Shown here piece by piece: positions 17,938-64,000 of a stretch of DNA of 64,000 nt. The position numbers and the translations under genes were made by a program. The stretch comes from Candidatus Zhuqueibacterota bacterium (GTDB taxonomy: Bacteria; Zhuqueibacterota; Zhuqueibacteria; Zhuqueibacterales; Zhuqueibacteraceae). The notes below the pieces were generated by a model, which saw only the letters and a program-made list of their open reading frames with translations, made no database searches and was not told where the DNA came from. The DNA lies in the NCBI GenBank assembly GCA_003576975.1, contig QEVD01000008.1:1-64000 (forward strand), in the 5' to 3' direction. Every line of letters begins with the position of its first letter. Position 1 is the first letter of the stretch.

Positions 17938-17947
17938 GAATTGCCCT

Positions 17948-18874: not shown

Positions 18875-18880
18875 GTGTTT

Positions 18881-39400: not shown

Positions 39401-39705
39401 TGACCGCGCTCAACAGCAGCGGCGATCCCGGCGTGCGCTACACCATTCTCGCCGGCGACGTCGAAACCTATCAAGAGCCTTCGGATCAGTTTTTTGCCAA
39501 AATGCTGGCCAAGGCGGGCAAGGGTTTCGTGTTGAGCGCATTGTTCGGCAGCGGCTCGCATGACATCGCGGTTGGCGTCGAGAGTATTCTCGGCATCGAC
39601 GGCTCACGCAATCCCATGCCCAAACGCGAGAACGTCGCCTGCCATCATTTGAATTATTTCATTTCCGATGCCGGTCAAAAAGCGCTGGCAGGGGTGGAGT
39701 GGTGA
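36463..39705 (+). CDS. Caspase-like peptidase fused to an alpha/beta-hydrolase (1080 aa)
   Basis: The N-terminal C14 caspase-like domain (KIYALLVGINDYAP at the start) has the catalytic His in YCGHGARW (His-84) and the Cys in LLDCCHSGSG (Cys-131), within about residues 1-260. The middle 550 residues have no recognised domain and are beta-rich. The C-terminal domain (about residues 820-1080) is a lipase-like alpha/beta hydrolase: VVLIHGIIGDSEN with the oxyanion motif, the nucleophile Ser-891 in LLAHSMGGLVSRW, CGTPNNGSPFG, and a late His in VACHHLNYF. There is no signal peptide. The start at 36463 has a GAGGAG ribosome-binding site; the frame extends 17 residues further upstream without one. The caspase part seems to lack a segment between DLAD and HVAVLLD. 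It is probably a cytoplasmic conflict effector. Confidence 0.85.
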   Translation: MAQKIYALLVGINDYAPEVGRLAGCLNDVDHFNEYLTGNFNKSELAIEVLKDRDATRGNIIKQFRKHLGKAKAGDVAVFQYCGHGARWKSAAAFKEFYPDGKDEGLVCYDSRGPGGYDLADAHVAVLLDCCHSGSGTRNVNAFRGLKARLTHEVSKERPLESYVDGYYAERQKKKERLAIPASKHILLAACERTQLAQETPNSSGVFTDTLIEVLSKSSGGNISYADLFVRCRAAVRTRAEDQSPQFEPYENFDAYAGFLGRAAAGAAHRHRVYFEADTQAWKIDAGAVAPVPGIPTDSTQVVKVALYRGDDAASFAGNAAIVKVGPQTSILEPGFQIDPEVQYQAEITNMPAAPMFVYLEGEAKGTEVLKKALTPEVGATLGVELTDIPEGTRYALAAEGGKFVLKQRETNVKILGVKDYSEQSAKTIFYEGLKPVVQWERILALQNHHSEMNKDEIDFVFTETPENGKPHQYEQDEMTLDYVKSGKEWKKIRGKIQIRNRTRQPLHFLVLYFSSKYGIFKIKNDPVPQGEEYVTVWGDQPDHYFDLDDTMIEGQEYKVKEEINNLKLIVSTEKIDDFLLAQKNVKNFGEDLPATRGMGGVGEEDQAKMYQDEWFAKKLCIKVVRQLDQVGAKDTALAKGKIVVKSHPSVKANLSLNAATTGTRGAGQGFDFYKAFEHHGLQMLNFSAGTRGDSENILELTDIQNAEALAQNPLEIEVNVPLNADEGILPFVFDGQHVMLGGDAYKDEQGNTHISIDHILETPDNRRSVGKALKLYFFKTYLKQDNVNQLCWVEFKDGGGIVRHKSMIAEKVNAAQNIVVLIHGIIGDSENIAKGLHAAGLDKKFDLVLTYDYENLSTPIAETALDLKKKLEAAGFGASDNKKLTLLAHSMGGLVSRWFIEREGGNSMVDHLVMCGTPNNGSPFGKIDSARKILNVLTGVAMNYIPALIPFNGAILFALNRSKKITPTLEQMNPASEFMTALNSSGDPGVRYTILAGDVETYQEPSDQFFAKMLAKAGKGFVLSALFGSGSHDIAVGVESILGIDGSRNPMPKRENVACHHLNYFISDAGQKALAGVEW

Positions 39706-41606: not shown

Positions 41607-41758
41607 GTTGCGCTCCTCGTTAAAACTGCTCTCTTTTGTCACGCTGATTGATTTGCCGCTGAAGATAAGAATTTTATACCCAAAATCAACATGATTGATT
41701 GATAATCACGCTTCATCTCGGCTGTAGTTTTCATCACCGGTCTGTAATAATTTCACCC

Positions 41759-46748: not shown

Positions 46749-47474
46749 ATGAAATCATTTATATCTGTAACAGTCACACGAATGTTTGGGCTGGCGATCT
46801 GGTGTGCGATCATGTTTTGCAACAGCACCGCCGAGGCGCAATTCAAGCGCGAGCATCTCTACAAGCTGCGCGACGGCAACCGCTTCGAGGGCATCAAAAC
46901 CAAAAAATGGAAACCGGTATCGGGAACAGTGGCGTTGACTTCTCTCGTACTCAGCGAAGGCCAGTCTGCGCCGGCCAATGCCTCGGGAGACAACGTCTCT
47001 GTCCACTTTTTTTCAACCGCAACCAGCGACATCAAACTTTCCATTTTCAATCTGGAAAAAGAATATTTCATGGAGCCGAGAAATCCGTCCTTCAACAAGG
47101 ATTGGAACGCCTTTTCTTGGCCCGCAAAAATTTTAAGTGAAATCAATTTGCCGGCCGGCCAGCTCGACGGCATCGCCTCGGCGCGCAAAGGCACGCAGGA
47201 TATTTACTTCCCCATTTGCTTTCACAAACCCGATGCCGCGAGCAAAAAACTGGTTGCCAAAGCCAAGCTGGTTCCCGACAAGAACATGACGGTGACGGTA
47301 TCGCTCTTTTCCGCTGATCCCAACAAACCGGACAAGGTTTGGGAAGATCAGAAACTCACCTCCGACGCGCCGTTTGCGGTGGAATGGCCGGTTGCCGCGA
47401 ATCAGAAAACCCTCCTTCTGAAAGTGAAAGAGCACGGCGGCCGGGAGTTTAGTTATAATATTCATCTGTTCTGA
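46749..47474 (+). CDS. Secreted protein of unknown function (241 aa)
   Basis: The N-terminal 31 residues form a signal peptide (VTRMFGLAIWCAIMFCNSTAEAQ). The mature part has no domain that I recognise. It is beta-rich and includes GDNVSVHFFSTATSDIKLSIF, CFHKPDAASKKLVAKAKLV and SDAPFAVEWPVAANQKTLL, which suggests one or two beta-sandwich modules. It lacks a lipobox and the type IX sorting tail of the large proteins further right, so it would be periplasmic. A GGAGG ribosome-binding site precedes the ATG by 7 bases. It lies between two REP-like repeats and may belong to the island operon with the trypsin-like gene. Confidence 0.7.
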   Translation: MKSFISVTVTRMFGLAIWCAIMFCNSTAEAQFKREHLYKLRDGNRFEGIKTKKWKPVSGTVALTSLVLSEGQSAPANASGDNVSVHFFSTATSDIKLSIFNLEKEYFMEPRNPSFNKDWNAFSWPAKILSEINLPAGQLDGIASARKGTQDIYFPICFHKPDAASKKLVAKAKLVPDKNMTVTVSLFSADPNKPDKVWEDQKLTSDAPFAVEWPVAANQKTLLLKVKEHGGREFSYNIHLF

Positions 47475-48245: not shown

Positions 48246-48533
48246 GTGTCGAACCCCGGTTGGGGTTCGACATGGTTGTATGATTCGAAACCCAGGGTGC
48301 AGGCACCCTGGGCTGCGGTGTGAAACGCCTTCGGCGTAACGTGCTGCGCTCGTTGAGAAATATTGGGTCACGCCGTTTTTATGTTGACCAAGGCGAAGCG
48401 CCATCGGAGTTTGGTATACTTTCTCCTTACCCGAAAACGCCGAAGGCGTTCAACACCAAAGTCGATGGTTGCGCACCACGCAACCATCGGATTCAAGATA
48501 GACATTGATGAACCCTGAAGGGTTCGACAAGAG
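48246..48533. repeat. REP-like inverted pair downstream of the transposase
   Basis: The left half has a perfect hairpin GTCGAACCCC / GGGGTTCGAC at 48248-48271, a second perfect hairpin CCCAGGGTGC / GCACCCTGGG at 48291-48312, then AAACGCCTTCGGCGT. The right half (inverted) has AACGCCGAAGGCGTT at 48436-48450, the hairpin CGATGGTTGCG / CGCAACCATCG at 48463-48489, and AACCCTGAAGGGTTCGAC. It spans nearly the whole spacer between the transposase stop and the trypsin-like gene. Confidence 0.78.
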
Positions 48534-48555
48534 CTCACAAACGAGGAGAAAGGCC

Positions 48556-50004
48556 ATGCCCTCAAAAACTATTCTACTAACGGCTCTCTTTTTTATAATG
48601 CTTCGATCTGCGAGCGTTGCCCAAGACAAAACTGCAGCGGAAATTTTGCCCAAAATCAAAGACAGCTTTGCGCTGTTGAGCGACGGCCAGAATTCTTCCC
48701 ACGGACTCTACGTCGCGGGGGCGCGCAGCAAGCAATTCATTTACATGCTGGCGCTCAATCAGCTTGCCGTCGGACTCGAAGTCAAGGTTCGATTCACTGC
48801 GCTGGACGGCAAAACAAAAGAGCTCGACGCCGAACGCTTGCAATCGGACGATAATATGGGCGTCGCGCTTTATCGCATCAAAACGTCAACGAAAGATTTA
48901 ATCCCCATCACCAAACATCCCGATCTGCGCAAAGCGCAAAACACGCCGTTATGGACATTGGGAAACGCCCAGTCGCTTCAGGATTTGCAGCGCGCCAGCC
49001 TTGTTGCTTTGCAGGATGACGACAAAGCCTTCACCGTCTCCGGCCTTGCTGCCGAAACGTTTGCAGGCATGCCGGTATTTGACGGCGAAGGCAAAGTCCT
49101 CGGCATGATCGCGCGCCAGAATGCCGACGGCACACATCATGCGATTGCCATTGCCGAGCTGCTGCAATTCGCCGCGCGCACGTTTGCCGCAGAGAAATTG
49201 GATCTCTATCCCACCTGGGACGAGGTTTTCCCCTCGCAATACGCCGTCGAAAAAGTCCGCGCCAGCTCCGCTACGCTCGAAACCGGTAAGCCGGGCGTGG
49301 GTTTTTTCATTGCCCGCGACAAACAAAACGCCGGATATTTCTTGACCGCGAATCACGTCGTGGAAGGCGAGAGCGAATTCAGCATCGAAATTCCCGGCTA
49401 TGAACAAAGCGACGTCATTGGCAAGACCATGCCGGGCAGCGAGGATGCCGCGCTGGATTTGGCCATCGTAATGGTTGAAGAGAATTGCCCGCCGGTCAAA
49501 CCGGTGTTCTTTTGGAGCACGAAAGATTTTCAAAAGCTCAAAAAAGGGTTTGTGGATTCGACTGAAGCCATTGCCAACGTCGGTCGCTCGCAGCAGGTGG
49601 GTGATTATTTTCAATCCAAAACCGGCTACATTCGCGGCGAGAATTTGGAAGGCCAGTTCATTCAAACCGATCTCTCGCTGGAAAGCGGCGACAGCGGCGG
49701 CCCGTTGTTCAACAAGAACGGCGAAGTCGTGGGCATCAATCTCAAAACCGAACTGCAAGCGGGCAGCTTCTCCACCGCCAACAACGTCGAAACCATTTTG
49801 AAATATCTCGACGACAAGCTGGGCAAAATCGAATTCAAAGAAAAATGGCAGTTTCTCGAAGTGCCGTCGTATTGGTCGAAAAATAAAAATTGGATTCTGC
49901 CGGTGGGCGCGACCACGCTCACGGCCTCAGGTTTCGTTCTCTATAACGTGCTAAAGCCGCCGGAGGCGCTGGCCGAAGTGCCGGGTGTGCCTGTCGGGCA
50001 GTGA
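48556..50004 (+). CDS. Trypsin-like serine protease with degenerate first domain and C-terminal membrane helix (482 aa)
   Basis: After a signal peptide (ILLTALFFIMLRSASVAQ) residues about 30-220 resemble a trypsin-like barrel that has lost its catalytic residues; FAGMPVFDGEGKVLGMIA aligns with the usual GDSGGP region but has no serine. Residues about 230-440 are an active-looking S1 protease: His-267 (LTANHVV), Asp-301 (ALDLAIVMV) and Ser-380 (SGDSGGPLFNKNGEVVGIN). A last hydrophobic segment (ILPVGATTLTASGFVLY) could anchor it in the membrane facing the periplasm. The start at 48556 has a clear GAGGAG site; the frame runs 17 codons further upstream into the repeat. Trypsin-fold proteins often act beside CHAT and caspase proteins in conflict islands. 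Confidence 0.88.
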   Translation: MPSKTILLTALFFIMLRSASVAQDKTAAEILPKIKDSFALLSDGQNSSHGLYVAGARSKQFIYMLALNQLAVGLEVKVRFTALDGKTKELDAERLQSDDNMGVALYRIKTSTKDLIPITKHPDLRKAQNTPLWTLGNAQSLQDLQRASLVALQDDDKAFTVSGLAAETFAGMPVFDGEGKVLGMIARQNADGTHHAIAIAELLQFAARTFAAEKLDLYPTWDEVFPSQYAVEKVRASSATLETGKPGVGFFIARDKQNAGYFLTANHVVEGESEFSIEIPGYEQSDVIGKTMPGSEDAALDLAIVMVEENCPPVKPVFFWSTKDFQKLKKGFVDSTEAIANVGRSQQVGDYFQSKTGYIRGENLEGQFIQTDLSLESGDSGGPLFNKNGEVVGINLKTELQAGSFSTANNVETILKYLDDKLGKIEFKEKWQFLEVPSYWSKNKNWILPVGATTLTASGFVLYNVLKPPEALAEVPGVPVGQ

Positions 50005-50070
50005 GGCGAGGCGGTATTCTTGCAAACCTTAACCAAAAAGATCGCCAGCGGATTGAAACAACCCAATTCA

Positions 50071-50209: not shown

Positions 50210-50327
50210 ACCGCTTTTGCATCTGCTTTGTTGTTCCCGAAATCTCGGAACGAGTTCAATCTGTTTGAAGCCGTTCGGTTTTTCGCTAAAACTCCATTTG
50301 CAATGGACTGATACGGAGTGAATTGAA

Positions 50328-53300
50328 ATGAAAACGAAATCTCTTGCCATTTCCTTGAAAACTCTCCTGGCCATGCTGCTCGGATTGTTTCTGCAACCCG
50401 CATTCAGCCAGTTCGACACGCCGCCCGGCGTTTGGCAAACCAACGGCCCGCAGTTCCATGCCGAGGTTACCGGGATCGTCGCGGATTTACAGGATAGCCT
50501 TTTATTGCATCTTGGCACGCGCGGGCCAGGCGCAAACATTGCCACGGGTTTGTTCCGTTCGACGGATGGCGGCGTTTCCTGGATTTTGGCTGATGAGCAA
50601 CAACTCAACGATGTCAATGTTATGACGTTGTTCGAAGTAAATGATATTCTTTTTGTCTCTGTTGTCAATTTCGACCATTCTGATGACTCCGGACTCTATT
50701 ATTCCTGGGACAAAGGCGAAAGTTGGGAACGTGCAGAAGGCGGCATGGCCGATAAAACCGCGCTGGCAATCGCGAGCAACGGCGAGGCCCTCTTTGCCGG
50801 CGGTTTGAAGCTGGCGTTCAATGAAGATGTTATTGAAGACGCGTTTGGCCTGTTTACCAGCACGGACGGCGGCAGAAGCTGGCAAGCTATTCCCGCAATG
50901 GACGGTAGAATTGTCACCAGTCTGGCTGTTTCTGCTTCGAAAATTTATGCCGGCACTGGCGGCACGTTGCCAAATCGCGGCGCTTTCCTGGCCAATGAGC
51001 CGCAAGATCACGGCGTTTTCATCAGCGAAGATGGCGGGGAAAATTGGACGTACTCTTTACCGGGCAACCGAATCGAATCAATGCTTTTTTATCGTGACAC
51101 GATTATTGCCGGAACGCAAGTGAACGGTCTGTTTTATACCTCTGATCAAAATATCGCATGGACCAACGCTATCCGAACTGACGGCGTGCCGTTGAATCTG
51201 GGGAGTGTCCGAAACCTCACGACGATTTTCCCTGATTCTCTTTTGGCAATGTCGCTGCATGATGGCGACCAAAGAGATGAGGTTTACACCTCTGTCAATG
51301 GGGACGCCTGGCAGTTCTTAAACCAAACGGAATCCCCCATAACCAAACTCATTTCGGATTTGCATCGCGACACGCCATTTTTATTTGTCGGCACGGAAAA
51401 CGAGGGCGTTATTCGAGTCGTGGGTATCGATAACGGCTTGGAAAATTCCATTTGGGTGCCGGCGGAACCGCCGATCGCAGGCACACATATCACGGCACTG
51501 GCTGCGAATTCCGGCGGCAATGATACTTATGCCGGCACACTGGTCAACGGCCTGTACCGCGCCCCCACCGGCGCACCGGTTTGGTTTCCCACCTCGCCTC
51601 AGCCGACGCACATCGCCACCGGAGGAGTGAATGTTTCAAATGAGAGGATGTTGCTCGCTTATGGCGCCGGCGCGGGGGTTTATCGCAGTTTAGACGGCGG
51701 GCAATCCTGGGCGCCTGCGGTCACGCCATTTACCGCGCCGATTTCGAGCTTGATTTATCACTTCGCGCAAGATTGGTTTTTACTCGGTGCGGAGTATTCT
51801 GACAGCCAGGGCCGGGCGATTGGCGTCTGGCGCAGCCGCGATGGTTTGCAGTGGGAACAAACCGGGGTTGATAGTGTGCTGGTTTATCAACTGCTCGAGT
51901 CTCAAGATGAAGAAACCATCTATGCCGCGACCAACAATGGCATCTACAGAACCATTGACGGCAGCGGCGGCGATTGGGAGAGGGTTTTGGAAATCAATTC
52001 CGGCGAGGTGTTGACAATGATGGAAGTCGATGACACCGGATTTTGGGCAGGCGTGCGATTTGACGGTGCAGGACTTTACTTCAGCTCGGATGGAGATGAT
52101 TGGAATCTTGTCGAAGGCGAGCTGGCCGGGAAAACCGTCACAGCGCTGGCATACTTTGGTGAGGACGTTTACGTTGGTACGGATGGAGAAGGCATTTATT
52201 TCAGCGCGGACGGTTTGACCAATTGGCAAAAGGCCAACGTGCCGTTTCGCGATGAGCAAGGTTCGCGCATCTCGCAGTTTCAAGTTATTGGCGATGATGC
52301 CTTGCTGCTCGCTGGCTCCGGCGGCTTGCCCGGCATCACTTCAGACGATCAGGGTTTGTTTTATTCAGACAATGGCGCAGATTGGTTTGCGATCGACGAA
52401 GAAAGCGTTGATCATGTTCGTATGGACGATAAAGATATTTGGAAAATCATCGCGCTCGACAGCGTGGCTTACGTTGCGACCGACGGCCATGGCGTTTTCC
52501 GAAGTGAGAAGTTCGATCTTTCACAATGGTTCCCGTTGAACACCGGCTTGACGGATTTGAACACGAGAAACATCATACACATGCCCGGGACGAAACAACT
52601 CGTTCTTTCAACCTTCGAGGGCGTGTTCACGCAAAAACTCGACGTCATCAATCCGAAGCTGGACTATTTCGACGTCGGCGGCGGCAGGCGTTTCGAGAAT
52701 CCCGACTATACCAATTCACGCGATGTCCGTTTTTTCATCTTTGCCTTTGACCCACTTGAAGACGGCTTTGACAGAGCTCCCGATTTCATGCGCGTTTCTG
52801 AAACTCCGGATTTTAGCGACACCACTTGGATAGCGTACAATGATAATATCGATTTCACGGAGCCGAACTTTATCATCAAGTCCGCAGGCGAAGGCCTCAA
52901 AACCATTTATGCCCAAGTGCGCGATCATTCCTGGAATTTGTCGGAAATACTTTCGTGGGATATCATTCTCGATCAAACCAAGCCGCAGTTTGACTCGCAC
53001 ACTCCGCCCTCGGGCGCGAGAGTGGGGCAGCCGGTAACCGTCTCATTCTCCGTAACCGAACCGAATATCGAGAGCATCACATTTCGGCTGCGCCGGCCAG
53101 GCCAGCAGTGGGATCCGAGACGATCATTCACTTTTTTCGATGATACTGACGGTGATTGGGATGTCGAAATTCCGGGTGAGTTCATTAGCAATGGCGGGTT
53201 CGACTATCGCATTATCGTGGCAGATCGCGCCGGCAATGTCGATTCGCTGCGCAGCAACACGCTGGACTTTGTTTCTTTGCCGGTCAATTTGAACGAAGCC

Positions 53301-54935
53301 GAGTTGGGCAATTCCAACAGTCTGCCTGCCGGAACCGGCGCTGGTTCCTACCGCATGGTGTCTGCGCCAATGAACTTGCAGAATTCACCGCCAGCCAAAG
53401 ATCTTTTTAAAGATCTCGGCGATTATGGCCGCCGCGGCAATTGGCGTTTTTATGCCTATCAAGGCAACGATCAATGGCAGGAAGGTGAAAACATTCCGCT
53501 GCAAACCGGCGCCGGTTATTTCATGATCCGCCGCGACGGCGGTCCGCTGACCAACAAGATGGCCGGCGCAACCACGCCAACCTCCGACGGTATCACCGGC
53601 AAAATCCCGGGCTGGCATCTGCGCGCCAACGACTGGACGCTCATCGGCAATCCCTACAACACGCGGTTGTCATTAGGCCAGTTGTTGCTGAGAAACAGCG
53701 GCATGCGTCTGGACTCTTCTGACGTTGCCGGGCAAATTTGGCTCTATGACGGCAGTTGGAAAAACCCGCAGACGACTCCCGACCTGGCGTTGGAAGCCTG
53801 GGGCGGTTTGTTTGTGCGCGCGGCGCATGCAGACACGATTATTTTTGCAAATGCCGCGGATCCTTTTCGACCGGTGGGAAAAATTTCTCTGCCGCCGGAT
53901 GATTTGGTTGAGCCGCCAGTTTCTGCGGGTGTGCGTCTGGTGGCCTCTGGCAAAAATGCTTCCGATGAGAACATAAAAATATCACTGCTGGAATTTGTTG
54001 GTGCCGAGCAACTTGATAAAGCGCGCCCACAGAAGGGGAAATCCCACAGAAAAGAAAATGCGCGCATGCAATTCAGCAGGCATGTCGATTATTTGGGCGA
54101 AAACCGCCTGACGCAAAGTTCATCCAGCAACAGCTCGCCCGGAGAAACGATTGCGGTTGAAAAGTCCGGCAGCTTTTTAAACAATCTCGCTGAAAACGAA
54201 TGGCTGGTGCAAATCATCGCGACGAGCCAGGAGATTTCGGATGAGGTGAATTATTTCGGTGTAAGAAACGAGGCGAAAGAGGTTTTGGACAAACACGATT
54301 GGTATGAGCCGCCTTTCATGCTCCAAGGCGTGAGCCTCACTTTTCCGCATGCGGATTGGGAAGCGCCGGTTGAATTGGCGGCGGATGTACGCCCAATTGC
54401 CGGTGAAGGCCATCGCTGGGAAATCGCGATCAAAGGCGAACCGACGCATGCCGTGCAGCTCAACTTTGCGAACTTGGAAAATGCGCCGGAGGGCCAGCAT
54501 ATTTTGCTGCTCGATGAAACCACAAAGATCATACACGATCTGCGCAAAGAATCTGCGCTTGCCGTTCGCATTCCCGACGCTGGAGTAAAAAATCTCGTCA
54601 TCCTCGCCGGCAATGATTTCTTTATCAACAAGCATACTGCGGGCATGCTCGGCGTGCCCACGGCTTTCGCCCTGCATCAGAATTACCCCAATCCCTTCAA
54701 CCCGAGCACGACGATTCGCTACCAACTGCCGTTTGCCGGACAAGTGACGTTGAAGATTTTTGATATGATGGGACGCGAAGTCATGGTTTTGGAGGAGAAC
54801 AAATCTCGCGAGCCGGGATATTATGAACTGGTGGCGGACATGAAAGCCCTGGGTTCGGGAGTGTATTTCTATCGTCTCAATATTTCCGGCGAGCAGAAGT
54901 TTCAGGCGACGAAAAAGATGTTGTATGTCAAGTGA
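50328..54935 (+). CDS. Secreted Asp-box propeller protein 1 with sorting domain (1535 aa)
   Basis: A signal peptide (LLAMLLGLFLQPAFSQ) precedes about 800 residues holding at least 12 Asp-box (BNR) motifs of the form FRSTDGGVSW or FYSDNGADW, as in sortilin/sialidase-type propellers. Two Ig-like domains follow (about residues 780-990). Next is a shared module of about 240 residues starting ELGNSNSLPAG and containing YGRRGNWRFYAYQG and WTLIGNPYNTRLSL. The C-terminal sorting domain has NYPNPFNPSTT. Compared with its two paralogues it has an extra polar insertion of about 80 residues (about 1180-1260). It is probably exported by a type IX-like system and displayed or released. No catalytic residues were recognised. 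Confidence 0.85.
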   Translation: MKTKSLAISLKTLLAMLLGLFLQPAFSQFDTPPGVWQTNGPQFHAEVTGIVADLQDSLLLHLGTRGPGANIATGLFRSTDGGVSWILADEQQLNDVNVMTLFEVNDILFVSVVNFDHSDDSGLYYSWDKGESWERAEGGMADKTALAIASNGEALFAGGLKLAFNEDVIEDAFGLFTSTDGGRSWQAIPAMDGRIVTSLAVSASKIYAGTGGTLPNRGAFLANEPQDHGVFISEDGGENWTYSLPGNRIESMLFYRDTIIAGTQVNGLFYTSDQNIAWTNAIRTDGVPLNLGSVRNLTTIFPDSLLAMSLHDGDQRDEVYTSVNGDAWQFLNQTESPITKLISDLHRDTPFLFVGTENEGVIRVVGIDNGLENSIWVPAEPPIAGTHITALAANSGGNDTYAGTLVNGLYRAPTGAPVWFPTSPQPTHIATGGVNVSNERMLLAYGAGAGVYRSLDGGQSWAPAVTPFTAPISSLIYHFAQDWFLLGAEYSDSQGRAIGVWRSRDGLQWEQTGVDSVLVYQLLESQDEETIYAATNNGIYRTIDGSGGDWERVLEINSGEVLTMMEVDDTGFWAGVRFDGAGLYFSSDGDDWNLVEGELAGKTVTALAYFGEDVYVGTDGEGIYFSADGLTNWQKANVPFRDEQGSRISQFQVIGDDALLLAGSGGLPGITSDDQGLFYSDNGADWFAIDEESVDHVRMDDKDIWKIIALDSVAYVATDGHGVFRSEKFDLSQWFPLNTGLTDLNTRNIIHMPGTKQLVLSTFEGVFTQKLDVINPKLDYFDVGGGRRFENPDYTNSRDVRFFIFAFDPLEDGFDRAPDFMRVSETPDFSDTTWIAYNDNIDFTEPNFIIKSAGEGLKTIYAQVRDHSWNLSEILSWDIILDQTKPQFDSHTPPSGARVGQPVTVSFSVTEPNIESITFRLRRPGQQWDPRRSFTFFDDTDGDWDVEIPGEFISNGGFDYRIIVADRAGNVDSLRSNTLDFVSLPVNLNEAELGNSNSLPAGTGAGSYRMVSAPMNLQNSPPAKDLFKDLGDYGRRGNWRFYAYQGNDQWQEGENIPLQTGAGYFMIRRDGGPLTNKMAGATTPTSDGITGKIPGWHLRANDWTLIGNPYNTRLSLGQLLLRNSGMRLDSSDVAGQIWLYDGSWKNPQTTPDLALEAWGGLFVRAAHADTIIFANAADPFRPVGKISLPPDDLVEPPVSAGVRLVASGKNASDENIKISLLEFVGAEQLDKARPQKGKSHRKENARMQFSRHVDYLGENRLTQSSSSNSSPGETIAVEKSGSFLNNLAENEWLVQIIATSQEISDEVNYFGVRNEAKEVLDKHDWYEPPFMLQGVSLTFPHADWEAPVELAADVRPIAGEGHRWEIAIKGEPTHAVQLNFANLENAPEGQHILLLDETTKIIHDLRKESALAVRIPDAGVKNLVILAGNDFFINKHTAGMLGVPTAFALHQNYPNPFNPSTTIRYQLPFAGQVTLKIFDMMGREVMVLEENKSREPGYYELVADMKALGSGVYFYRLNISGEQKFQATKKMLYVK

Positions 54936-54956
54936 TTTTGAACCTCAGCAATCACG

Positions 54957-57900
54957 ATGAAAACTTTCATCTCTATAAAGTTGTTTCCTGCCGCCACGAT
55001 GCTGCTGGTGATTTTGAGTGTGAATGGCTACGCGCAATCTCCGGGCCTTTGGGAAACCAATGGCCCGAGGGCCGCATTGCCGGTTCGCATCAATAGCTTT
55101 GCGCGCCTGCAAACAGCGGCCAGCGACACCATATTTGCCGCCTCCAGCGAAGGCGTGCTGTTCAGCCAAGACGCCGGACTGACCTGGCAAAAGTTGCTGA
55201 GTATCGGTAACCGCATTGCGCTGTTGTTCAATGTACAAGATACGCTTTATGCGCTGCGCGACGGCTTGCCTTACAAAAGCATTGACGCCGGCGCTACCTG
55301 GCCTTCCCTCAGTTTTGCCGGATTAGGCGCGGTTAAAGATAATCTGTTTTCTCATGCCAACGGCACGCTTTTGGTCGTGACGCAGCAAAACAGCATTTAT
55401 TTCAGCAGGAATGGCGGGCGAAATTGGCAACAGGCGATTCTCCCGGGCAACGGCATGGTGATAAATTCGTTCATGGCCGGAGATTCGCTATTTTTTGCCG
55501 GCACGGATGCCCACGGCTTGCTCATGAGCTCTGACAGCGGCGCGACCTGGGAAACGGTTAATTCTCCATTAAATGAAGGGCGTGTGCGCACGGTTTTCTT
55601 TCATGACGGCCAGCTTTACGTCGAAAAAATTTTGCAAAGCCTCGAGCTTTTCTACGGACAAGAGGGCGCGCGCGACTGGAGAACATTTGGCGAGGCTTTC
55701 AGAATCTACGGTGTGACTTTCATGAAATTCATCGCCGGGCGGTTTTATGTCGGCAACAATTTCAGCATCTGGCATAGCAGCGATGCCGCCGGCGCGTGGC
55801 AAATGGGAACCGGCGCGATCGTGAATCAATTCGCGCGTTCACTGATTTCCACCGGCAATGCGCTTTACGCCGGCACGAATTTGAGCGGCGTTTACACGAG
55901 CACGGACGGCGGCGCGCTTTGGCAAAAAGCTGAAACGCCGTTTAGAGCCGCGACCAGCCTGGATTTTTTGCAACAAGAAGATTTCAGTCTCATTGGCACG
56001 GAGTCCGCGATTTTTCGCAGCCGCGACAGCGGCGAAACCTGGGCGCGGCGCAGCTTCTTCGATCCCGACTTCACGTTCAATGCGCCGAAATTGTTTGTTG
56101 GTCAAGATGTGCTGGCCGCCTTCGGGCAGGATGGCCTGTTCCTGAGTTATGACGCGGGCAGCAATTGGCTGCAGATTCAATCGCCGGTTTTCGATAACAA
56201 CGTTGTGCGCGATTTCATTTCGATCGAAGGCGCATTCGTTGCAGCCACGTTGCGGGGCATTTTTTACAGTTTCGATTTGGGCGCAACCTGGACTGAACCG
56301 GTTTTCAACACGGAAATCACCAGCGGCGGCAAGGAAGCGTTCACGTTGCTCACCGCTGGAAATGCCGTTTATGCCGGTTTAAGGGCCGGAATTTTCCGCA
56401 GCGTTAACGGCGGGCTGGCCTGGAGGTTTGATGGTGAAAGCACGGCCGCAGAATCCTTTCTGGCCGCCGGCAATCGTCTTTTTGCGCGCGGCGGTGGAAG
56501 CATTTTTCGCCGTGTGCCCGGTGAATTGCGCTGGCAACGTTTACAGATTTCCGGCAATCCGCAGATTGCCGCGCTGCTTTATCATAATGGCGTTTTGTAT
56601 GCCGGCGCGAGAAATTCCGGCATTTACATGAGTGAAGATGACGGCGGGAACTGGCAGGCGGCGCAACTGCCGCCGAACCTCATTGAAATCGAGAGCCTGT
56701 TTGCCGCAGATTCGACGAATCTCTTCGCTGGCGCCATTGCATCCAGTACTACTTTCCCGATTTTAATCAGCCGAGACAGGGGCAGAAACTGGGAGTACGC
56801 CCAAGCGCCATTAAACCTTGGGCGGTTGGCAAAAATCGAAGCTTCGGGACAGGCCTGGTATGCCGTTGCCGGAGGCAGTATTCATCGCAGCTTGAATCGT
56901 GGGCAAACGTGGACGCCGTTGCAAACCGGCTTGGAAAATGCGCTGGCAACAGTGCAATTCGAACGCCTCGCCACGCTCGATCGCCTGCTGGCCTTCACCG
57001 CAAAAGGCTATTTTCTTCAAAGGGAAGATCTCGATCCTCCTCAGCCGAAGATTTTTTCTATTCAATCTGTCGACAATGGCCGCTTCACCAAATCCCATCA
57101 GATAGATTTAATTATCACGGCTGAGGGCGCTGATTTCATGCGGCTTTCTGAAGATGCAAGTTTCGCCAATGCCCCATGGGTCGATTTCAATTCGGAATAC
57201 GAATTTCCGCTTTCGGCTGGCGACGGCGAGAAAATGATCTATGCACAATTCCGCGATTTCTCCTGGAATTTATCGGATACCATCAGCGCCAGCATCACGC
57301 TTGACACGCAAACGCCTCGCTTTGCCGAACATCTCTCGCCGCAAAATGCCAGGCCTGGAAATGAAATCACCGTTACACAACAAATCCTCGATGACAATCC
57401 GCAGAGCGCGGAGTTGTTCTTCCGGCGCGCCGGGGAAACGTGGAATCCCAACATTCGCCGGGTTCTGTTTGATGGAGATGCCGCCGCCATCGCCGATGTT
57501 TGGGTCAATAACCGAGGCCTCGATTATCAGATCTCGGCATCGGATTTAGCGGGAAATGAATCGACTTTGCAAAACGGCGCGCTCGACTTTTATTCGTTAC
57601 CAGTCAATATCGCTGCAACCGAGCTGGGCAACTCGCGCAGCCTGCCGGGTGGCACCGGCGGCGCGGCGTATCGCATCGTTTCAATTCCGCTGGATTTGCA
57701 GGATTCTCCGCAAGCCAAAAATGTTTTTGAAAATTTGGGCAAATACGGCCGCCGCGGCAACTGGCGCTTCTATGCGTATTCCGGCAATAGCCAATGGGAG
57801 GAAGGGGAGAATATTCAAATGCAAACCGGCGCGGGTTATTTCATGATTCGCCGCAGTGGCGGCAGCTTGACGAATGCCATCTCGGCTGCGACGACAAAAA

Positions 57901-58976
57901 CTACAGACGGCGTGCTCGGCAATATTTCCGGCTGGCAATTGCGCGGAGGTGATTGGACGCTGATCGGCAATCCCTACAACACGCGAATCGAGTTGAGCCA
58001 GTTGAAATTGAAACGCGAAGGAACTTTGTTGAGCAATCATGGCGCAGAAGTGCAGGTTTGGAACTATGATGGTCAGTGGCGAAATCCGATTATCGAGCCT
58101 GAACTTGCACTGGAAGCATGGGGCGGTTTGTTTATTCGCGCCAGCGAAGCCGACACAATTGTTTTTGCCAATGATAAAGAGCCTTATGCGCGAAACGCTG
58201 CCAAAACCGGCATTGCTGCAACAGAACTCGCTGAAGGCGAATGGTCGATTCAAATCACCGCAGCCAGCGGTGAATTTAGCGATGTCGTCAACTATTTCGG
58301 CGTGAGAAAAGAGGCGAAAGACGATTTGGATAATTTTGACTGGCACGAACCGCCTTTCCTGCCGGATGGCATCGGACTCAGTTTCCCGCATCCGGGGTGG
58401 AACTCGCCTGCCGAGTTGACCGCCGATTTTCGCGGAAATGAAAGCGACGGCCAGCGCTGGGAAATTTCCGTCAAGGGCGAACCGTCTCACGCCGTGCAAC
58501 TCGGTTTCGCGAATATCGAATCCGCGCCGAATGCTTTGCAAATTCTGCTCGTCGATGAAATCACCAAAATCGTGCATGATCTCCGCAAAGAAGCAACGGT
58601 TGCCGTTCGCATCCCTGAAGCCGGCGTTAAATCACTCGCAATCCTCGTCGGCGATGATTTCTTTATCAACAAAAACACCGCGGGCATGCTGGCTGTGCCG
58701 ACAACGTTTGCGCTGCATCAAAACTACCCCAATCCCTTCAATCCCAGCACCACGATTCGTTACCAAATGCCGGTTGCGGGACGAGTGACTTTGAAGATTT
58801 TCGATATGCTGGGACGGGAAGTTTTGGTTTTGGAAGAAAACAAATCTCGCGAGCCAGGATACTATGAAGCTGTCGCAGACATGAATGCGTTGGGTTCCGG
58901 GGTTTATTTTTATCAAATTGCCGTTGCCGGCGAGCAAAAGTTTTTGGCAACGAAAAAGATGCTATACGTCAAATAG
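54957..58976 (+). CDS. Secreted Asp-box propeller protein 2 with sorting domain (1339 aa)
   Basis: Paralogue of the preceding gene, starting 21 bases after its stop with no obvious Shine-Dalgarno sequence. A signal peptide (AATMLLVILSVNGYAQ) is followed by about 13 Asp-box motifs (for example FRSRDSGETW and FLSYDAGSNW) over residues 30-700, then the Ig-like pair, the ELGNSRSLPGG module and the sorting domain. The propeller part has diverged strongly from both neighbours while the C-terminal 450 residues are very close to protein 3. The Ig region keeps MIYAQFRDFSWNLS, shared with the other two. A surface-binding or adhesion role is inference. Confidence 0.85.
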   Translation: MKTFISIKLFPAATMLLVILSVNGYAQSPGLWETNGPRAALPVRINSFARLQTAASDTIFAASSEGVLFSQDAGLTWQKLLSIGNRIALLFNVQDTLYALRDGLPYKSIDAGATWPSLSFAGLGAVKDNLFSHANGTLLVVTQQNSIYFSRNGGRNWQQAILPGNGMVINSFMAGDSLFFAGTDAHGLLMSSDSGATWETVNSPLNEGRVRTVFFHDGQLYVEKILQSLELFYGQEGARDWRTFGEAFRIYGVTFMKFIAGRFYVGNNFSIWHSSDAAGAWQMGTGAIVNQFARSLISTGNALYAGTNLSGVYTSTDGGALWQKAETPFRAATSLDFLQQEDFSLIGTESAIFRSRDSGETWARRSFFDPDFTFNAPKLFVGQDVLAAFGQDGLFLSYDAGSNWLQIQSPVFDNNVVRDFISIEGAFVAATLRGIFYSFDLGATWTEPVFNTEITSGGKEAFTLLTAGNAVYAGLRAGIFRSVNGGLAWRFDGESTAAESFLAAGNRLFARGGGSIFRRVPGELRWQRLQISGNPQIAALLYHNGVLYAGARNSGIYMSEDDGGNWQAAQLPPNLIEIESLFAADSTNLFAGAIASSTTFPILISRDRGRNWEYAQAPLNLGRLAKIEASGQAWYAVAGGSIHRSLNRGQTWTPLQTGLENALATVQFERLATLDRLLAFTAKGYFLQREDLDPPQPKIFSIQSVDNGRFTKSHQIDLIITAEGADFMRLSEDASFANAPWVDFNSEYEFPLSAGDGEKMIYAQFRDFSWNLSDTISASITLDTQTPRFAEHLSPQNARPGNEITVTQQILDDNPQSAELFFRRAGETWNPNIRRVLFDGDAAAIADVWVNNRGLDYQISASDLAGNESTLQNGALDFYSLPVNIAATELGNSRSLPGGTGGAAYRIVSIPLDLQDSPQAKNVFENLGKYGRRGNWRFYAYSGNSQWEEGENIQMQTGAGYFMIRRSGGSLTNAISAATTKTTDGVLGNISGWQLRGGDWTLIGNPYNTRIELSQLKLKREGTLLSNHGAEVQVWNYDGQWRNPIIEPELALEAWGGLFIRASEADTIVFANDKEPYARNAAKTGIAATELAEGEWSIQITAASGEFSDVVNYFGVRKEAKDDLDNFDWHEPPFLPDGIGLSFPHPGWNSPAELTADFRGNESDGQRWEISVKGEPSHAVQLGFANIESAPNALQILLVDEITKIVHDLRKEATVAVRIPEAGVKSLAILVGDDFFINKNTAGMLAVPTTFALHQNYPNPFNPSTTIRYQMPVAGRVTLKIFDMLGREVLVLEENKSREPGYYEAVADMNALGSGVYFYQIAVAGEQKFLATKKMLYVK

Positions 58977-59019
58977 TACTGTCAATTTTGCCGTCGCGAT
59001 AAACTTCAGAGAAGAACAC

Positions 59020-62000
59020 ATGAACGTGAGAGCTTTGCTGGCCCGCATGAAAGCGCTGGCACTCGTGAGTTTCTCTTTCATCTTTGGAAACGCTTTGTCT
59101 CAAGACGCAGCGCCGGGCAAATGGATTTCCTTTCCCGGCGACATTTCGCCAAAGACAAACGTCATGGCGGGGCGCTCTGTATCGCAGGACCTTTGGGCCG
59201 GCACCAATGCTGGAATCTTTCGAACCACTGATTATGGACTGACCTGGTCCCAAGTCGAACGCCCGATCGCCGGCAAAGAAGTGATCAGCATGCTTTGGAT
59301 AGACAATCTAACAGTGTATGTTGGGACTGCGCAAGACGGCCTTTTTCGAAGTGACAATGGCGGCGCCACTTGGACGCAAGCATTGGAAGCTAGGGCAGTA
59401 CGAGCCTTGTTATGGCTGGAACGCGATCAAACACTCTACGCCGGTTTGGCATACGCCGGCCTTTCAGATGAACTGGGAGTATGGAAGAGTACGGATTTTG
59501 GAAAAACGTGGGAACCGAGCGGCCTCAGTAATCAAGAAATCAGCGAATTTCATGAAATCGACGGCAGATTAATTGCCATCGGCGCTTACCTCTTCTACAG
59601 CGACAACGGCGGGTCAAATTGGGCTCAAGTCGATCCGCCAAATACATTAACCCCATCAAAACCTGCACTTCTCTCTGTCGACAGCTTGCTTTATGCCGCC
59701 ACTTTTTTTGCCGGCGTGTGGCGAAGCGGAGATCGCGGCGAAACGTGGGTGCAGGCCAATCCCCCAATGGATACGCAGTGGATTAGTACACTCATATATA
59801 ACGCGACCAATCACTCCCTCTTTGCCGGCACCTACGACAATGGTGTCTGGCGGAGTATGGATTCGGGGCAAAATTGGGAGCAGGCAGCGTCTCCGCTGGA
59901 TAGTGGCTACGTGCAGTCCTTGATTGCTTTGGATGATGGAACGATGCTTGCCGGAACGGCGGACAATGGCGTGTGGCGCAGCACAGACGGGGGAACTAAG
60001 TGGAACCGGACCGACCCGCCGATGAATGTGCATATTTTCCTTCAGCGCCTCGGGAGAGTCTATGCTGTCACCGAAGATGAAGGAATATTTCGCAGCTCGG
60101 ATCAAGGTCAAACGTGGTATGGTTCGGGAAACTCCTTTTATTTGCGGCCCAACGCGGTCGGTGTTTACGTTGAAAAAGACTTCAATTTTATCCTGGCCTA
60201 CGGTGAACGGGGTATTTTTCGGAGCGAAGACGGGGGGCAGAGCTGGGCCAGCGCCGATACGCTGCAAAATAGACCCGTGCGAAGACTAGTCGAGATGGAT
60301 AACGCCTTTTATGCAGCAAAAGATCTCGCGAGCATATTGGATGAAGATGCCCGCATCTACAAAAGCATGGATCGTGGTATCACATGGACACCGACTGGGC
60401 GGTTGCCGGGTGATGGTTTGTTGAGAGTGAATCAAGTGACGAGCTTGCACGCCTCGGCAGGAAGGCTTTATGCCGGGTCAAATCTCGGCTTATTCTATAG
60501 CGGCGATAACGGCGCAAGCTGGTCAGCGGCCAACAGTCCCATGAATTTTGGCGCTGTCTTAAATATCATCTCACTGCCGGACGGAAGACTGATTGCAGAC
60601 AACAACTACGAAAAGGGAATCTTTTATAGCGATGATCTCGGTCAAAACTGGACCAGAGCAAATCCGCCAATGGACAATCAAAGCGTGACCGTCTTGCTGG
60701 CAGCGGATGCAACAACAGTGTACGCGGGTACGGGCGGCAATGGATTTTTTTACAGCACGGATCGTGGCGCGAACTGGGCGCCAGCGCCAGCGCCGATGAA
60801 TGATAAAAATATCTCGACATTGTCGATCCTGGAGGGTGGCGTCATTTACGCTGGCACGCAGGGAAACGGCGTTTGGCGAAGCACCGATGGGGGAACTCGC
60901 TGGGAAGGTGCAAACCCGCCCATGGCGGACAAAACGGTTTTATCGCTTTTCCGATGGGCAACAGAAGAAGACACCGCATTGTTTGCCGCAACCGGCGCAG
61001 GCCAGGGAGTTTTTAGAAGCTTGGACGGCGGCAGGAATTGGACGGCGCTCAATACCGGATTTAATCTTGTCAATGACGTGAGAGCTTTCAAAGACATCCC
61101 GCTGATAAAGCGGCTTTATGCTGCCACAGATGCCGGCGTTTATTTCCAGCAAGTTGATTTTGCTCCGCCGCAGGCCGTCGCCCTGCAGATTGGAACCTCC
61201 GAAGGGCGGAAGCTGGAATTCACCAGGGTGCCGGAAGTCACGTTGCTTCTTGATGCCGAAGATCAGGACGATCCTCCGTATCCCGATTCCATGATTGTTT
61301 TCGAAGAAGGCAAATTTTCTGAGGCAAAATGGGAGCCATTTCAAAGCTTGTTTGCATTCACGGTCTCGAACACTGACGGGCCCAAAATTATCCATGCGCA
61401 GGTCAAGGATCTATCCTGGAATCTATCCGCAACGGTAAAGGATACGATAACACTGGATACCACGCCCCCGCGATTCCTGGCACACACGGTTACACCAGTG
61501 ACTCCGGCTGCTGGCCAGAGTATTCGCATCACCCAAGAAGTGGACGATCGGAACCCGGATAGGATCGAGTTGTTATACTGGCTCTCTGGCCAAGCAAGGA
61601 TGAGTCGCGCCGCTTTTCTCGGCAATGCGATTGATATTGATGGCGCTTTTGTGGCTAATCGCGGTTTCGACTATCGTATTGTCGCCACCGACAAGGCCGG
61701 TAATGATTCGACTCTGCAAAACGGCGTGCTTGATTTTTTCTCCTTGCCAGTTGCGATCTCTGCAAGCGAACTGGGCAACTCGCGCAGCCTGCCGAGCGGC
61801 GCCGGCGGCGCAGCTTATCGCATCGTTTCGATTCCGCTGGATTTGCCCAATTCGCCTAAAGCAAAAGATGTTTTCAGAGATTTGGGCAATTACGGCCGCC
61901 GCGGCAATTGGCGCTTCCATGCGTATTCCGGCAATAGCCAATGGGAGGAAGGGGAGAATATTCAAATGCAAACCGGCGCGGGTTATTTCATGATTCGCCG

Positions 62001-63123
62001 CGACGGCGGCAGTTTGACGAATGCCATCGCGGCTGCGACGACAAAAACTACGGACGGTGTGCTCGGCAATATTTCCGGCTGGAAATTGCGCGGCGGCGAC
62101 TGGACGCTCATTGGCAATCCCTACAATACACGCCTCGAGTTGAGCCAGTTGAAATTGAAGCGCAAAGGAACTTTGTTGAGCAATCACGGCACAGAAGTAC
62201 AGGTTTGGAATTACGATGGCCAGTGGCGAAATCCGATTATCGAGCCTGAACTTGCTCTGGAAGCCTGGGGCGGTTTGTTTATTCGCACGAGTGAAGCCGA
62301 CACTATTGTTTTCGCCGATGCCAAAGAACCTTACGCGCGCAATGTTGCAAAAGCCGGCATTGCTGCAACAGAACTCGCTGAAGGCGAATGGTCGATACAA
62401 ATCACCGCAGCCAGCGGCGAATTCAGCGATGCCGTCAACTACTTTGGTGTGAGAAAAGAGGCGAAAGACGGTTTGGATAATTTTGATTGGCACGAGCCGC
62501 CTTTCCTGCCGGATGGCATCGGGCTCAGTTTCCCGCATCCGGAATGGAACGAGCCGACGGAATTGACCGCCGACTTTCGTGGGATTGAAAGCGACGGCCA
62601 GCGCTGGGAGATTTCTGTTAACGGCGAAGCAGCGCATGCCGTGCAACTCAGCTTCGCACATATCGCAACCCTACCGGAAGATTTTCGCATTTTGCTGGTT
62701 GATGAAACCACCAAAATCATGCACGATCTCCGCAAAGAACCTACCATTGCGGTTCGCATTCCCGAGTCCGGCGTCAAATCACTCGCGATCCTCGCCGGCA
62801 GTGATTTCTTTATCAACAAGAATACCGCAGGCATGCTGGCTGTGCCGACAACGTTTGCGCTGCATCAGAATTATCCCAATCCCTTTAATCCCAGCACAAC
62901 GATTCGTTACCAAATGCCGGTTGCGGGACGAGTGACGTTGAAAATTTTTGATATGATGGGACGGGAAGTTTTGGTTTTGGAAGAGAACAAATCCCGCGAG
63001 CCGGGATACTATGAAGCTGTTGCAGACATGAATGCGTTGGGTTCCGGGGTTTATTTTTATCAAATTGCCGTTGCCGGCGAGCAAAAGTTTCAGGCGACAA
63101 AGAAGATGATATTTGTCAAATAA
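59020..63123 (+). CDS. Secreted Asp-box propeller protein 3 with sorting domain (1367 aa)
   Basis: Third tandem paralogue. The start at 59020 opens a signal peptide (LALVSFSFIFGNALSQ) and follows a purine-rich GAGAAGA; the frame extends 45 codons upstream into the previous gene's 3' end. I count 15 Asp-box motifs (such as VWRSTDGGTKW and FYSDDLGQNW), the most regular set of the three, in keeping with two propellers of seven or eight blades. The Ig-like pair, the ELGNSRSLPSG module and the sorting tail (NYPNPFNPSTT; FDMMGREVLVLEE) complete it. Long stretches of its 3' part are identical at the base level to protein 2, pointing to gene conversion. Confidence 0.86.
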   Translation: MNVRALLARMKALALVSFSFIFGNALSQDAAPGKWISFPGDISPKTNVMAGRSVSQDLWAGTNAGIFRTTDYGLTWSQVERPIAGKEVISMLWIDNLTVYVGTAQDGLFRSDNGGATWTQALEARAVRALLWLERDQTLYAGLAYAGLSDELGVWKSTDFGKTWEPSGLSNQEISEFHEIDGRLIAIGAYLFYSDNGGSNWAQVDPPNTLTPSKPALLSVDSLLYAATFFAGVWRSGDRGETWVQANPPMDTQWISTLIYNATNHSLFAGTYDNGVWRSMDSGQNWEQAASPLDSGYVQSLIALDDGTMLAGTADNGVWRSTDGGTKWNRTDPPMNVHIFLQRLGRVYAVTEDEGIFRSSDQGQTWYGSGNSFYLRPNAVGVYVEKDFNFILAYGERGIFRSEDGGQSWASADTLQNRPVRRLVEMDNAFYAAKDLASILDEDARIYKSMDRGITWTPTGRLPGDGLLRVNQVTSLHASAGRLYAGSNLGLFYSGDNGASWSAANSPMNFGAVLNIISLPDGRLIADNNYEKGIFYSDDLGQNWTRANPPMDNQSVTVLLAADATTVYAGTGGNGFFYSTDRGANWAPAPAPMNDKNISTLSILEGGVIYAGTQGNGVWRSTDGGTRWEGANPPMADKTVLSLFRWATEEDTALFAATGAGQGVFRSLDGGRNWTALNTGFNLVNDVRAFKDIPLIKRLYAATDAGVYFQQVDFAPPQAVALQIGTSEGRKLEFTRVPEVTLLLDAEDQDDPPYPDSMIVFEEGKFSEAKWEPFQSLFAFTVSNTDGPKIIHAQVKDLSWNLSATVKDTITLDTTPPRFLAHTVTPVTPAAGQSIRITQEVDDRNPDRIELLYWLSGQARMSRAAFLGNAIDIDGAFVANRGFDYRIVATDKAGNDSTLQNGVLDFFSLPVAISASELGNSRSLPSGAGGAAYRIVSIPLDLPNSPKAKDVFRDLGNYGRRGNWRFHAYSGNSQWEEGENIQMQTGAGYFMIRRDGGSLTNAIAAATTKTTDGVLGNISGWKLRGGDWTLIGNPYNTRLELSQLKLKRKGTLLSNHGTEVQVWNYDGQWRNPIIEPELALEAWGGLFIRTSEADTIVFADAKEPYARNVAKAGIAATELAEGEWSIQITAASGEFSDAVNYFGVRKEAKDGLDNFDWHEPPFLPDGIGLSFPHPEWNEPTELTADFRGIESDGQRWEISVNGEAAHAVQLSFAHIATLPEDFRILLVDETTKIMHDLRKEPTIAVRIPESGVKSLAILAGSDFFINKNTAGMLAVPTTFALHQNYPNPFNPSTTIRYQMPVAGRVTLKIFDMMGREVLVLEENKSREPGYYEAVADMNALGSGVYFYQIAVAGEQKFQATKKMIFVK

Positions 63124-63198: not shown

Positions 63199-63262
63199 TG
63201 ACCTGAATGGAAGCAAAACGTGAGCAATAAAGCGTAATTCGTGAGGCGTGAGGCGAAACCCG

Positions 63263-64000
63263 ATGCCCCAAATAAACGATCATCAAACCAACAAACCCGT
63301 CATCTTCCTCGCCTTTGCGCAAGACCGCGTCGCGGACGGCGCGTATTTGCGCAATCTGCCCATCGAGCTGGACGGCATCCGCAAGGCGCTGCAGAAAGCA
63401 AAACAGGCCGGGCTGTGTGAAATTGTCGAGCGCTCGAACACGACGGTCGAAAACATTCTTGACGTGTTTCAAGAGTATCAGGATCGCATCGCCATTTTTC
63501 ATTACGGCGGCCATGCGGACAGCTTCGAGCTGCTGCTCGAATCGCTGGCCGGCGCGCATGCCGCGGCGCATCGTGAAGGCTTGGTTTCGTTCTTGGCGAG
63601 ACAACTCGGGTTAAAGCTGGTCTTCCTGAACGGCTGCAGCACGCAGCAGCATGCCCTGGATTTGAAGGAAGCCGGCATTCCCGCGGTGATCGGCACTTCA
63701 AAGACCATCGGCGATGCCGTGGCCGCAGACCTGGCGGTGCGCTTTTACAAAGGACTGGCCGCGGGCCACACGATTGAGCGCGCCTGGGCCGAGGCCGTGG
63801 ATCAGGTGAAAATAGAAAAAGGCACGGACTGGCGGGCGCTGCACTGGCAAGGCAAAACCGAAACGCCCGACCGGTTTCCGTGGGAAATCTCTTACCGCGA
63901 GGGCGCGGAAAAAGTAAAAGACTGGAATTTGCCGGAAGCAGCGGAAAATCCATTGTTCGGCCTTCCAGAGATTCCGCCAGAATATTTCCGCAAGCTCCCT
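63263..64000 (+). CDS. CHAT-domain protein, 5' part (246 codons, runs off the window)
   Basis: The sequence from MPQINDHQTNKPVIFLAFAQ onward is closely similar to the N-terminus of the 41759 protein across the whole CHAT domain. It keeps the catalytic pair His (HYGGHADSFELL) and Cys (FLNGCSTQQHAL), and continues with PWEISYREGAEKVKDWNLPE and ENPLFGLPEIPPEY, the same linker that precedes the STAND NTPase in the full-length paralogue. The reading frame is open through base 64000. The rest presumably encodes an NTPase and sensor region, but that is not in view. The start has only a weak purine-rich ribosome-binding site. It is the third CHAT copy in 23 kb. Confidence 0.85.
   Translation, partial: MPQINDHQTNKPVIFLAFAQDRVADGAYLRNLPIELDGIRKALQKAKQAGLCEIVERSNTTVENILDVFQEYQDRIAIFHYGGHADSFELLLESLAGAHAAAHREGLVSFLARQLGLKLVFLNGCSTQQHALDLKEAGIPAVIGTSKTIGDAVAADLAVRFYKGLAAGHTIERAWAEAVDQVKIEKGTDWRALHWQGKTETPDRFPWEISYREGAEKVKDWNLPEAAENPLFGLPEIPPEYFRKLP

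Follow-up and report, generated by a model that had tools for sequence, protein, structure and literature searches.

How can neighboring genes share almost the same 3′ end when their 5′ parts have little in common? This question is raised by three tandem genes for Asp-box β-propeller proteins in a bacterium of the candidate phylum Zhuqueibacterota (genome G000). The sequence analyzed is a 64-kb stretch of this genome (contig QEVD01000008.1, positions 1–64,000), hereafter called the window, and all coordinates are window positions. The three proteins are probably secreted propellers of the type IX secretion system (T9SS) with a shared 3′ homology block, in which recombination keeps the tails alike while the heads are exchanged.

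Architecture of the propeller array

Gene 1 (head type A, 50328..54935, 1535 amino acids (aa)), gene 2 (head type B, 54957..58976, 1339 aa), and gene 3 (head type C, 59020..63123, 1367 aa) are co-directional open reading frames (ORFs) on the + strand that are separated by spacers of 21 and 43 nucleotides (nt), respectively. The start of gene 3 was set to the ATG at 59020, since the first ATG of its ORF (58885) lies within gene 2 and a signal-peptide-like start is found at 59020. The proteins share a common architecture: each begins with a signal-like start and a long Asp-box head, continues through an Ig-like stretch into a ~360-residue module, and ends in a type IX sorting domain; in gene 1 the Ig-like linker leads into a divergent copy of the cassette. 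Asp-boxes, defined by the pattern S/T-x-D-x-G-x-x-aromatic, occur 7, 9, and 13 times in genes 1, 2, and 3, in agreement with a preliminary description of this DNA as harboring three tandem Asp-box propeller genes.

The head/tail border in genes 2 and 3

The tails of genes 2 and 3 (451 residues) are 89% identical in aa sequence, with 88.5% DNA identity over the last 1356 nt. The shared tail had been described as “nearly identical” over its last ~450 residues, which is slightly strong as wording. The propeller regions had been said to differ widely, and the heads are indeed only ~31% alike. Divergence along the two genes is not uniform: a single change-point at 57555 in gene 2 and 61702 in gene 3 separates a DNA identity of 0.45 before it from 0.89 after it (log-likelihood gain 163). 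This point divides the variable heads (54957..57554 and 59020..61701, + strand) from the constant cassettes (57555..58976 and 61702..63123, + strand), which comprise the end of the Ig-like domain, the ~360-residue β-sandwich module, and the sorting domain. It lies 66 nt (22 codons) upstream of the ELGNSRSLP motif at which the constant part had been thought to begin; a sharp border was thus rightly proposed, but it was placed too far downstream.

The border is also seen at synonymous sites. Aligned by codon, genes 2 and 3 are saturated in their heads, and their tail has a synonymous divergence (dS) of about 0.40–0.41 and a nonsynonymous divergence (dN) of ~0.06 (0.057). At identical residues the same codon is used in 80/207 cases in the heads (0.39; chance 0.36) and in 299/383 cases in the tails (0.78; chance 0.40). 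Because codon agreement at identical residues also switches there, the border is independent of the poor alignment of the heads. As a control, gene 1 was compared with its orthologue in the same-genus genome G001, and no switch was observed (codon match 605/781 in the head and 294/418 in the tail).

Exchange of heads in same-genus genomes

The comparison set consists of 99 genomes, namely G000 and 98 relatives. G001 and G002 belong to the genus of the window, G099 is conspecific, and G006 represents another genus of the same family. The module is matched in some form in 65 of the 99 genomes; a close match (~81%) is found only in the two same-genus genomes. Both harbor the array, and in both a syntenic gene carries a different head on the same tail (gX with head D in G001, gY with head E in G002). 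The four heads B, C, D, and E share 29–38% mutual identity, and the corresponding tails, from ELGN to the sorting domain, share 80–87%. The codon switch recurs in the pair gX–gY, with matches of 101/229 in the heads and 307/382 in the tails. Tail dS amounts to 0.41 between genes 2 and 3 and to 0.37 between gX and gY, and the heads are saturated in both pairs. The change-points of the gene pairs cluster at the module border, the exception being gene 2–gY, where the change-point lies further upstream.

Fragments next to the intact genes mark where the arrays were rearranged. The DNA of G001 is ~86% identical to the window from upstream of gene 1 through codon 195 of gene 2, and these first 195 codons (to ~55541) are kept as an orphan piece. 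Past this codon G001 jumps into a fragment of a trypsin gene and then into gX with its other head and the same tail. The junction lies at a short microhomology between Asp-box codons and the codons for the trypsin motif GDSGG, and the fragment is 91.4% identical to the trypsin gene of G002 and 89.5% identical to G001’s own. G002 lacks gene 1, and upstream of gY it retains orphan tail pieces (40 and 206 aa) together with the beginning of a head of the gX type. The DNA of G001 and G002 is 93% identical once the last gene has reached its tail (L051rc 12625-19001 vs L052rc 11179-17558), and no DNA match exists between the heads of these last genes. Head C is without a close relative among the searched genomes, its best match being at 39% (G002).

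The conspecific genome G099 contains no close copy of gene 2, the gene 2 tail, or head C and, among the matches listed, no gene 1 DNA apart from a repeat and a 50-nt match. One of its contigs encodes a caspase (93% aa identity), a CHAT/STAND pair, a GH19 protein (93%), and a CHAT-nSTAND protein, and no propeller gene is found in 40 kb of this contig. As a conspecific genome does without it, the array is accessory, subject to the draft state of the assemblies.

Recombination and its alternatives

The divergence within the tails bears directly on their history. The tails of genes 2 and 3 differ more in some stretches than in others, to a degree reached in 0 of 5000 shuffles, and dS along the tail is patchy, ranging from 0.08 to 1.05. 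The longest identical run measures 83 nt (57772..57854 in gene 2, equal to 61919..62001 in gene 3, + strand), which confirms the runs of about 80 bases reported near 57780 and 61920; when codon difference patterns were permuted within the tail, a run as long appeared in 0.5% of 5000 shuffles. Tails are mosaic between paralogues and between species in 6/6 triplets (max-chi-square test; a signal of this strength arose in no more than 2 of 400 permutations). The clearest mosaic is a patch of gene 3, in which 17 of 18 informative sites match the gene of G001 and not gene 2.

Replacement of heads alone, in which the tail was duplicated once and joined to a foreign head with no conversion thereafter, would account for the different heads on one tail in the sister genomes and for the fragments that mark the joins. 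It is nevertheless an unlikely history, as it predicts neither the patchy divergence of the tails nor their mosaic structure across genes and genomes. From these two properties it follows that conversion or crossing-over continued after the duplication.

A history without any recombination, with genes 2 and 3 as old duplicates that combine fast-evolving heads with strongly constrained tails, is very improbable. The tail is functionally constrained (dN 0.06 vs dS 0.40), and the heads of surface proteins often evolve fast. Protein constraint, however, cannot align synonymous sites. At identical residues the codons agree at the level of chance in the heads and at twice that level in the tails, a pattern that neither constraint nor fast heads can explain. 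The part immediately 5′ of the border, which can still be aligned, is likewise at chance level (15/52; chance 0.40), and the heads of gene 1 orthologues evolve slowly (dS 0.40, 91% aa identity). Selection on tail codons or RNA is disfavored by the tail dS of ~1.05 between genes 1 and 2.

A polymorphic-toxin system is hardly to be expected here. Rhs proteins and contact-dependent growth inhibition (CDI) systems pair an invariant delivery region with a part that can be exchanged and leave orphan fragments, and the array resembles them in its constant delivery part, its variable part, the orphan fragments beside an intact gene, and its location in an accessory island. In contrast to the variable warheads and cognate immunity genes of such systems, the exchanged part of the array is N-terminal and a non-enzymatic-looking propeller. 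No toxin domain is detected in Pfam and NCBIfam scans, the gaps of 21 and 43 nt are too small for immunity genes, and no toxin or immunity gene was found at the array. A diversity-generating retroelement as the source of the head variation can practically be dismissed: reverse transcriptases are present in G000 (4 matches) and, in the accessible part of the source (PMC10907252), such elements diversify sensors in CHAT/STAND islands, but none of the 4 matches lies on the contig of the window, and the variation spans whole heads (~880 codons), affects every codon position, and includes indels instead of being confined to adenine-templated sites.

Recombination between the copies thus remains the preferred explanation. 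The constant cassette with exchangeable heads that the preliminary description had proposed is borne out for genes 2 and 3 by the synonymous and codon switch, the mosaics, and the head swaps in the sister genomes. In the proposed mechanism, the 3′ third of each gene (~1.4 kb, from the end of the Ig-like domain through the ~360-residue β-sandwich module to the T9SS sorting domain) would serve as a shared homology block, and the 5′ two thirds would encode putative binding heads. Homologous recombination between the tandem copies would keep the tails similar through patchy gene conversion, and unequal crossing-over would delete or fuse genes. With occasional import from related strains, heads could be replaced, lost, or added as whole units, and most exchanges would resolve where the Ig-like domain ends, in a stretch of ~100 nt. 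Diversity of the heads is presumably favored by selection. Any single step may have converted a tail or placed another head on a duplicated one; either route is recombination.

Several observations weigh against this explanation or limit it. The tree of the tail DNA pairs gene 2 with gene 3 (94/96) and gX with gY (100/100) and rejects gene 3 with gY (approximately unbiased (AU) test, 7e-6), and the head tree prefers gene 3 with gY (87/94). The tail grouping, however, is not rejected by the head trees (AU 0.134 for the pair of genes 2 and 3, 0.07 for gX and gY). The topological conflict is therefore weak by itself, and the case rests on the switch in rate and codon agreement. The tails coalesce near the depth of the G000–G001 split (dS 0.41 vs 0.40 for the gene 1 heads), so homogenization is not very recent. 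An intact donor of head C was not found in the genomes searched, all of which are draft assemblies, and neither a recombination hot-spot nor a dedicated recombinase was identified. Finally, two of three other tandem pairs compared (G030 and G045, the third being G006) are old throughout with a tail that is not homogenized, which means that a homogenized tail is not general for the module.

Gene 1 as a distant paralogue

The preliminary description had included gene 1 among the homogenized genes, which does not hold. Its tail (diverged cassette, 53301..54935, + strand) shares an aa identity of only 0.63 with those of genes 2 and 3 at a dS of ~1.05 and contains ~94 extra residues. Homogenization of all three genes was ruled out by this divergence. 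It is limited to genes 2 and 3, and gene 1 is a more distant paralogue that is weakly involved. The orthologue of gene 1 in G001 is 87% identical in aa sequence overall, and the tail dS between the orthologues is 0.64.

Distribution of the module

Homologous tails are found elsewhere on unrelated heads. A plain scan of the named genomes with the gene 2 tail gave no match; with an alignment as query, 53 loci with homologous modules were retrieved. Records with the module are titled KSB1, Caldithrix/Calditrichaeota, Zixiibacteriota, Latescibacterota, Rhodothermaceae, and others. From 27 tail-bearing ORFs that were collected, the heads of 17 were scanned and fall into HYDIN/ASH Ig (5), FG-GAP/ASPIC (4), He_PIG (2), and TIG (2) types, with Big_13, LVIVD, BNR, and fn3 represented once each. 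The ~360-residue module itself matches no Pfam family.

In the tandem pair of G006, constant ends (dS mostly 0.1–0.3) surround a saturated middle of TIG repeats. At this locus (L064, G006:C409), the N-terminal 400 aa and the tail are both constant, which gives a swap pattern with two constant ends.

Domain content and predicted export

The type IX C-terminal sorting domain is recognized over cut-off by both PF18962 and TIGR04183 in all three proteins (54666..54935 in gene 1, 58707..58976 in gene 2, and 62854..63123 in gene 3, + strand). Hydrophobic signal-like starts, as judged by eye, precede the propellers. A search aimed at the T9SS translocon protein SprA (TIGR04189) gave matches over cut-off in G000, G001, and G002, with the G000 gene split across contigs C358 and C561. 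From their sequences, the array proteins are most likely surface or matrix proteins exported via the T9SS, and the sorting domain together with genomic SprA suggests a delivery role for the cassette. In G000, 151 sorting-domain matches are spread over many contigs, and the genome probably encodes well over a hundred T9SS cargo proteins.

The heads match the Sortilin-Vps10 profile PF15902 over cut-off in 3/3 proteins and the BNR profile PF02012 in 2/3. The predicted model of the gene 3 head is all-β (predicted local distance difference test score (pLDDT) 72.7, predicted template modeling (TM) score (pTM) 0.53). It yields many propeller matches, the nearest being tandem-propeller sensor domains, GH74, and SorCS2, at TM scores of 0.15–0.36 from a modest model. 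The tail is predicted as a string of β-sandwich domains (pLDDT 83) and has no informative solved relative, as its matches are generic β-sandwich proteins including PorU at TM scores of at most ~0.3. Asp-box propellers are widespread in bacteria and use their variable top face for function, according to the accessible part of the source (PMC2716378), which makes ligand binding by the heads plausible. An enzymatic role of the heads is possible, since the NCBIfam glycosylhydrolase profile F510_1955 is passed in gene 3, and only there (197.6 vs a cut-off of 175).

Comparison with known systems

The closest parallel is found in the gingipains and HagA of Porphyromonas gingivalis, modular T9SS surface proteins for which the accessible part of the source (PMC5266723) describes recombination that rearranges domains combinatorially and exchanges alleles. 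Like RgpA, Kgp, and HagA as portrayed there, the array proteins are T9SS cargo with near-identical modules common to several genes and recombination among them. In the oral system, as far as that text goes, adhesin repeats make up the shared portion and few alleles exist of the catalytic heads, whereas in the array the shared part is a linker module with a sorting domain, the exchanged part is a whole propeller head, and the genes stand in tandem in an uncultured phylum. No gingipain catalytic or cleaved-adhesin (CAD) domain is detected in Pfam or NCBIfam scans of the array proteins. What the two have in common is that paralogous T9SS proteins recombine through modules they share; the array works like the gingipain/HagA exchange and is not a member of it.

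The KLIKK proteases of Tannerella forsythia similarly combine different N-terminal parts with one nearly identical C-terminal domain (PMC4404884). Their heads are proteases, and recombination is not discussed in the accessible part of that source; in contrast to what is given there, the array is tandem and its heads differ at the same locus between sister species. Sortilin/Vps10-type and GH74 propellers resemble the array in their Asp-box blades and profile matches (Sortilin-Vps10/BNR) and differ from it in that the array proteins end in a bacterial T9SS tail and not in receptor domains. No paper was found that treats an exchange of propeller heads on a T9SS tail or the T9SS proteins of KSB1, in a literature search that left subscription journals mostly outside.

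Recombinational reshuffling is a known route by which bacteria vary their surface proteins, and it is observed here in an uncultured phylum. Modular exchange among T9SS surface proteins, known from oral Bacteroidota, is extended to an uncultured, probably KSB1-type lineage. The locus offers a tractable signature: synonymous sites change abruptly at a defined border, and both the moving parts and their remnants are preserved in sister genomes. Should the heads recognize partners, rivals, or phages, the locus would amount to a naturally occurring library of such heads joined to one export tail.

Genomic neighborhood

The array lies in a co-directional cluster of genes for a caspase, a GH19 protein, a CHAT-STAND-WD40 protein, an exported-looking 241-aa protein, and a trypsin-like protease. 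On the + strand of the window, the caspase (C14)/hydrolase gene occupies 36412..39705; relatives of it stand directly 3′ of the array in G001 and G002, where they begin 30 and 32 nt past the last propeller gene. The nSTAND1-WD40 protein with a CHAT-like N terminus (41699..46402) belongs to the upstream part of the cluster and is homologous to the CHAT region at 63248. It contains at least 11 very similar WD40 repeats that are perhaps homogenized or expanding. The 241-aa protein (46749..47474) has a signal-peptide-like start and no family match, and it is found at the same position in G001 and G002. The trypsin-like protease gene (48505..50004), a piece of which lies at the G001 junction, stands directly 5′ of the array in 3/3 array-bearing genomes. 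Just 3′ of the array starts a CHAT-nSTAND1-Lcl_C gene (63248..64000), which continues in the contig to 65876 (L053:3249-5876).

The C-terminal end of the Lcl_C gene presumably resembles a ligand domain of the retroelement-diversified kind. A test for a template repeat, confined to the end of this neighboring gene, found no second copy of its 3′ end in G000, and retroelement diversification of the CHAT-STAND-Lcl_C neighbor was therefore dropped.

Cluster genes flank the array in all three array-bearing genomes of the genus. Defense-system profiles match 2 of 7 proteins, the caspase and the trypsin-like protease. Similar intracellular parts form diversified conflict systems elsewhere, according to the accessible part of the source (PMC10907252), and a functional link between the array and the caspase/CHAT-STAND cluster is put forward as a suggestion. 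The array might act as the polymorphic outward recognition arm of the cluster and make up a single co-directional unit with the exported-looking trypsin-like protease and the intracellular CHAT/caspase-STAND-WD40 proteins, sensing kin, phage, or rivals and triggering an intracellular death or defense response, with diversity generated by head exchange on a constant tail and not by a retroelement. This combined proposal is unlikely, because propellers are lacking in the conspecific G099 despite its caspase, GH19, and CHAT genes and because homologous tails occur elsewhere without such neighbors: among 174 loci compared, no other tail-bearing locus has such a cluster, and two have a weak CHAT match alone. 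The caspase/CHAT-STAND setting still provides a testable link from surface recognition to intracellular conflict proteins.

The conflict-type cluster is itself reshuffled within the species, as the comparison of G099 with the window reveals. On contig C6 of G099 (L169:2718-17946), the caspase and GH19 genes lie ~7 kb apart with a different CHAT/STAND-WD40 pair between them.

Mobile elements are found near the array as well. A palindromic element of ~140 nt upstream of gene 1 (50069-50212) resembles repetitive extragenic palindromic (REP) sequences or miniature inverted-repeat transposable elements (MITEs). Dozens of copies are found in G099, many of them 94–99% identical, and the spacer that matches this region in G001 is 160 nt shorter. 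An IS200/IS605-like transposase gene (47781-48218) shows a weak match to REP-associated tyrosine transposases and is a candidate for mobilizing REP-like elements of the kind present at 50069; in G001, the corresponding neighbors lie too close together to accommodate it. A second multi-copy element of ~100 nt (30318-30418) has many copies in G099 and is partly similar to the element at 50069.

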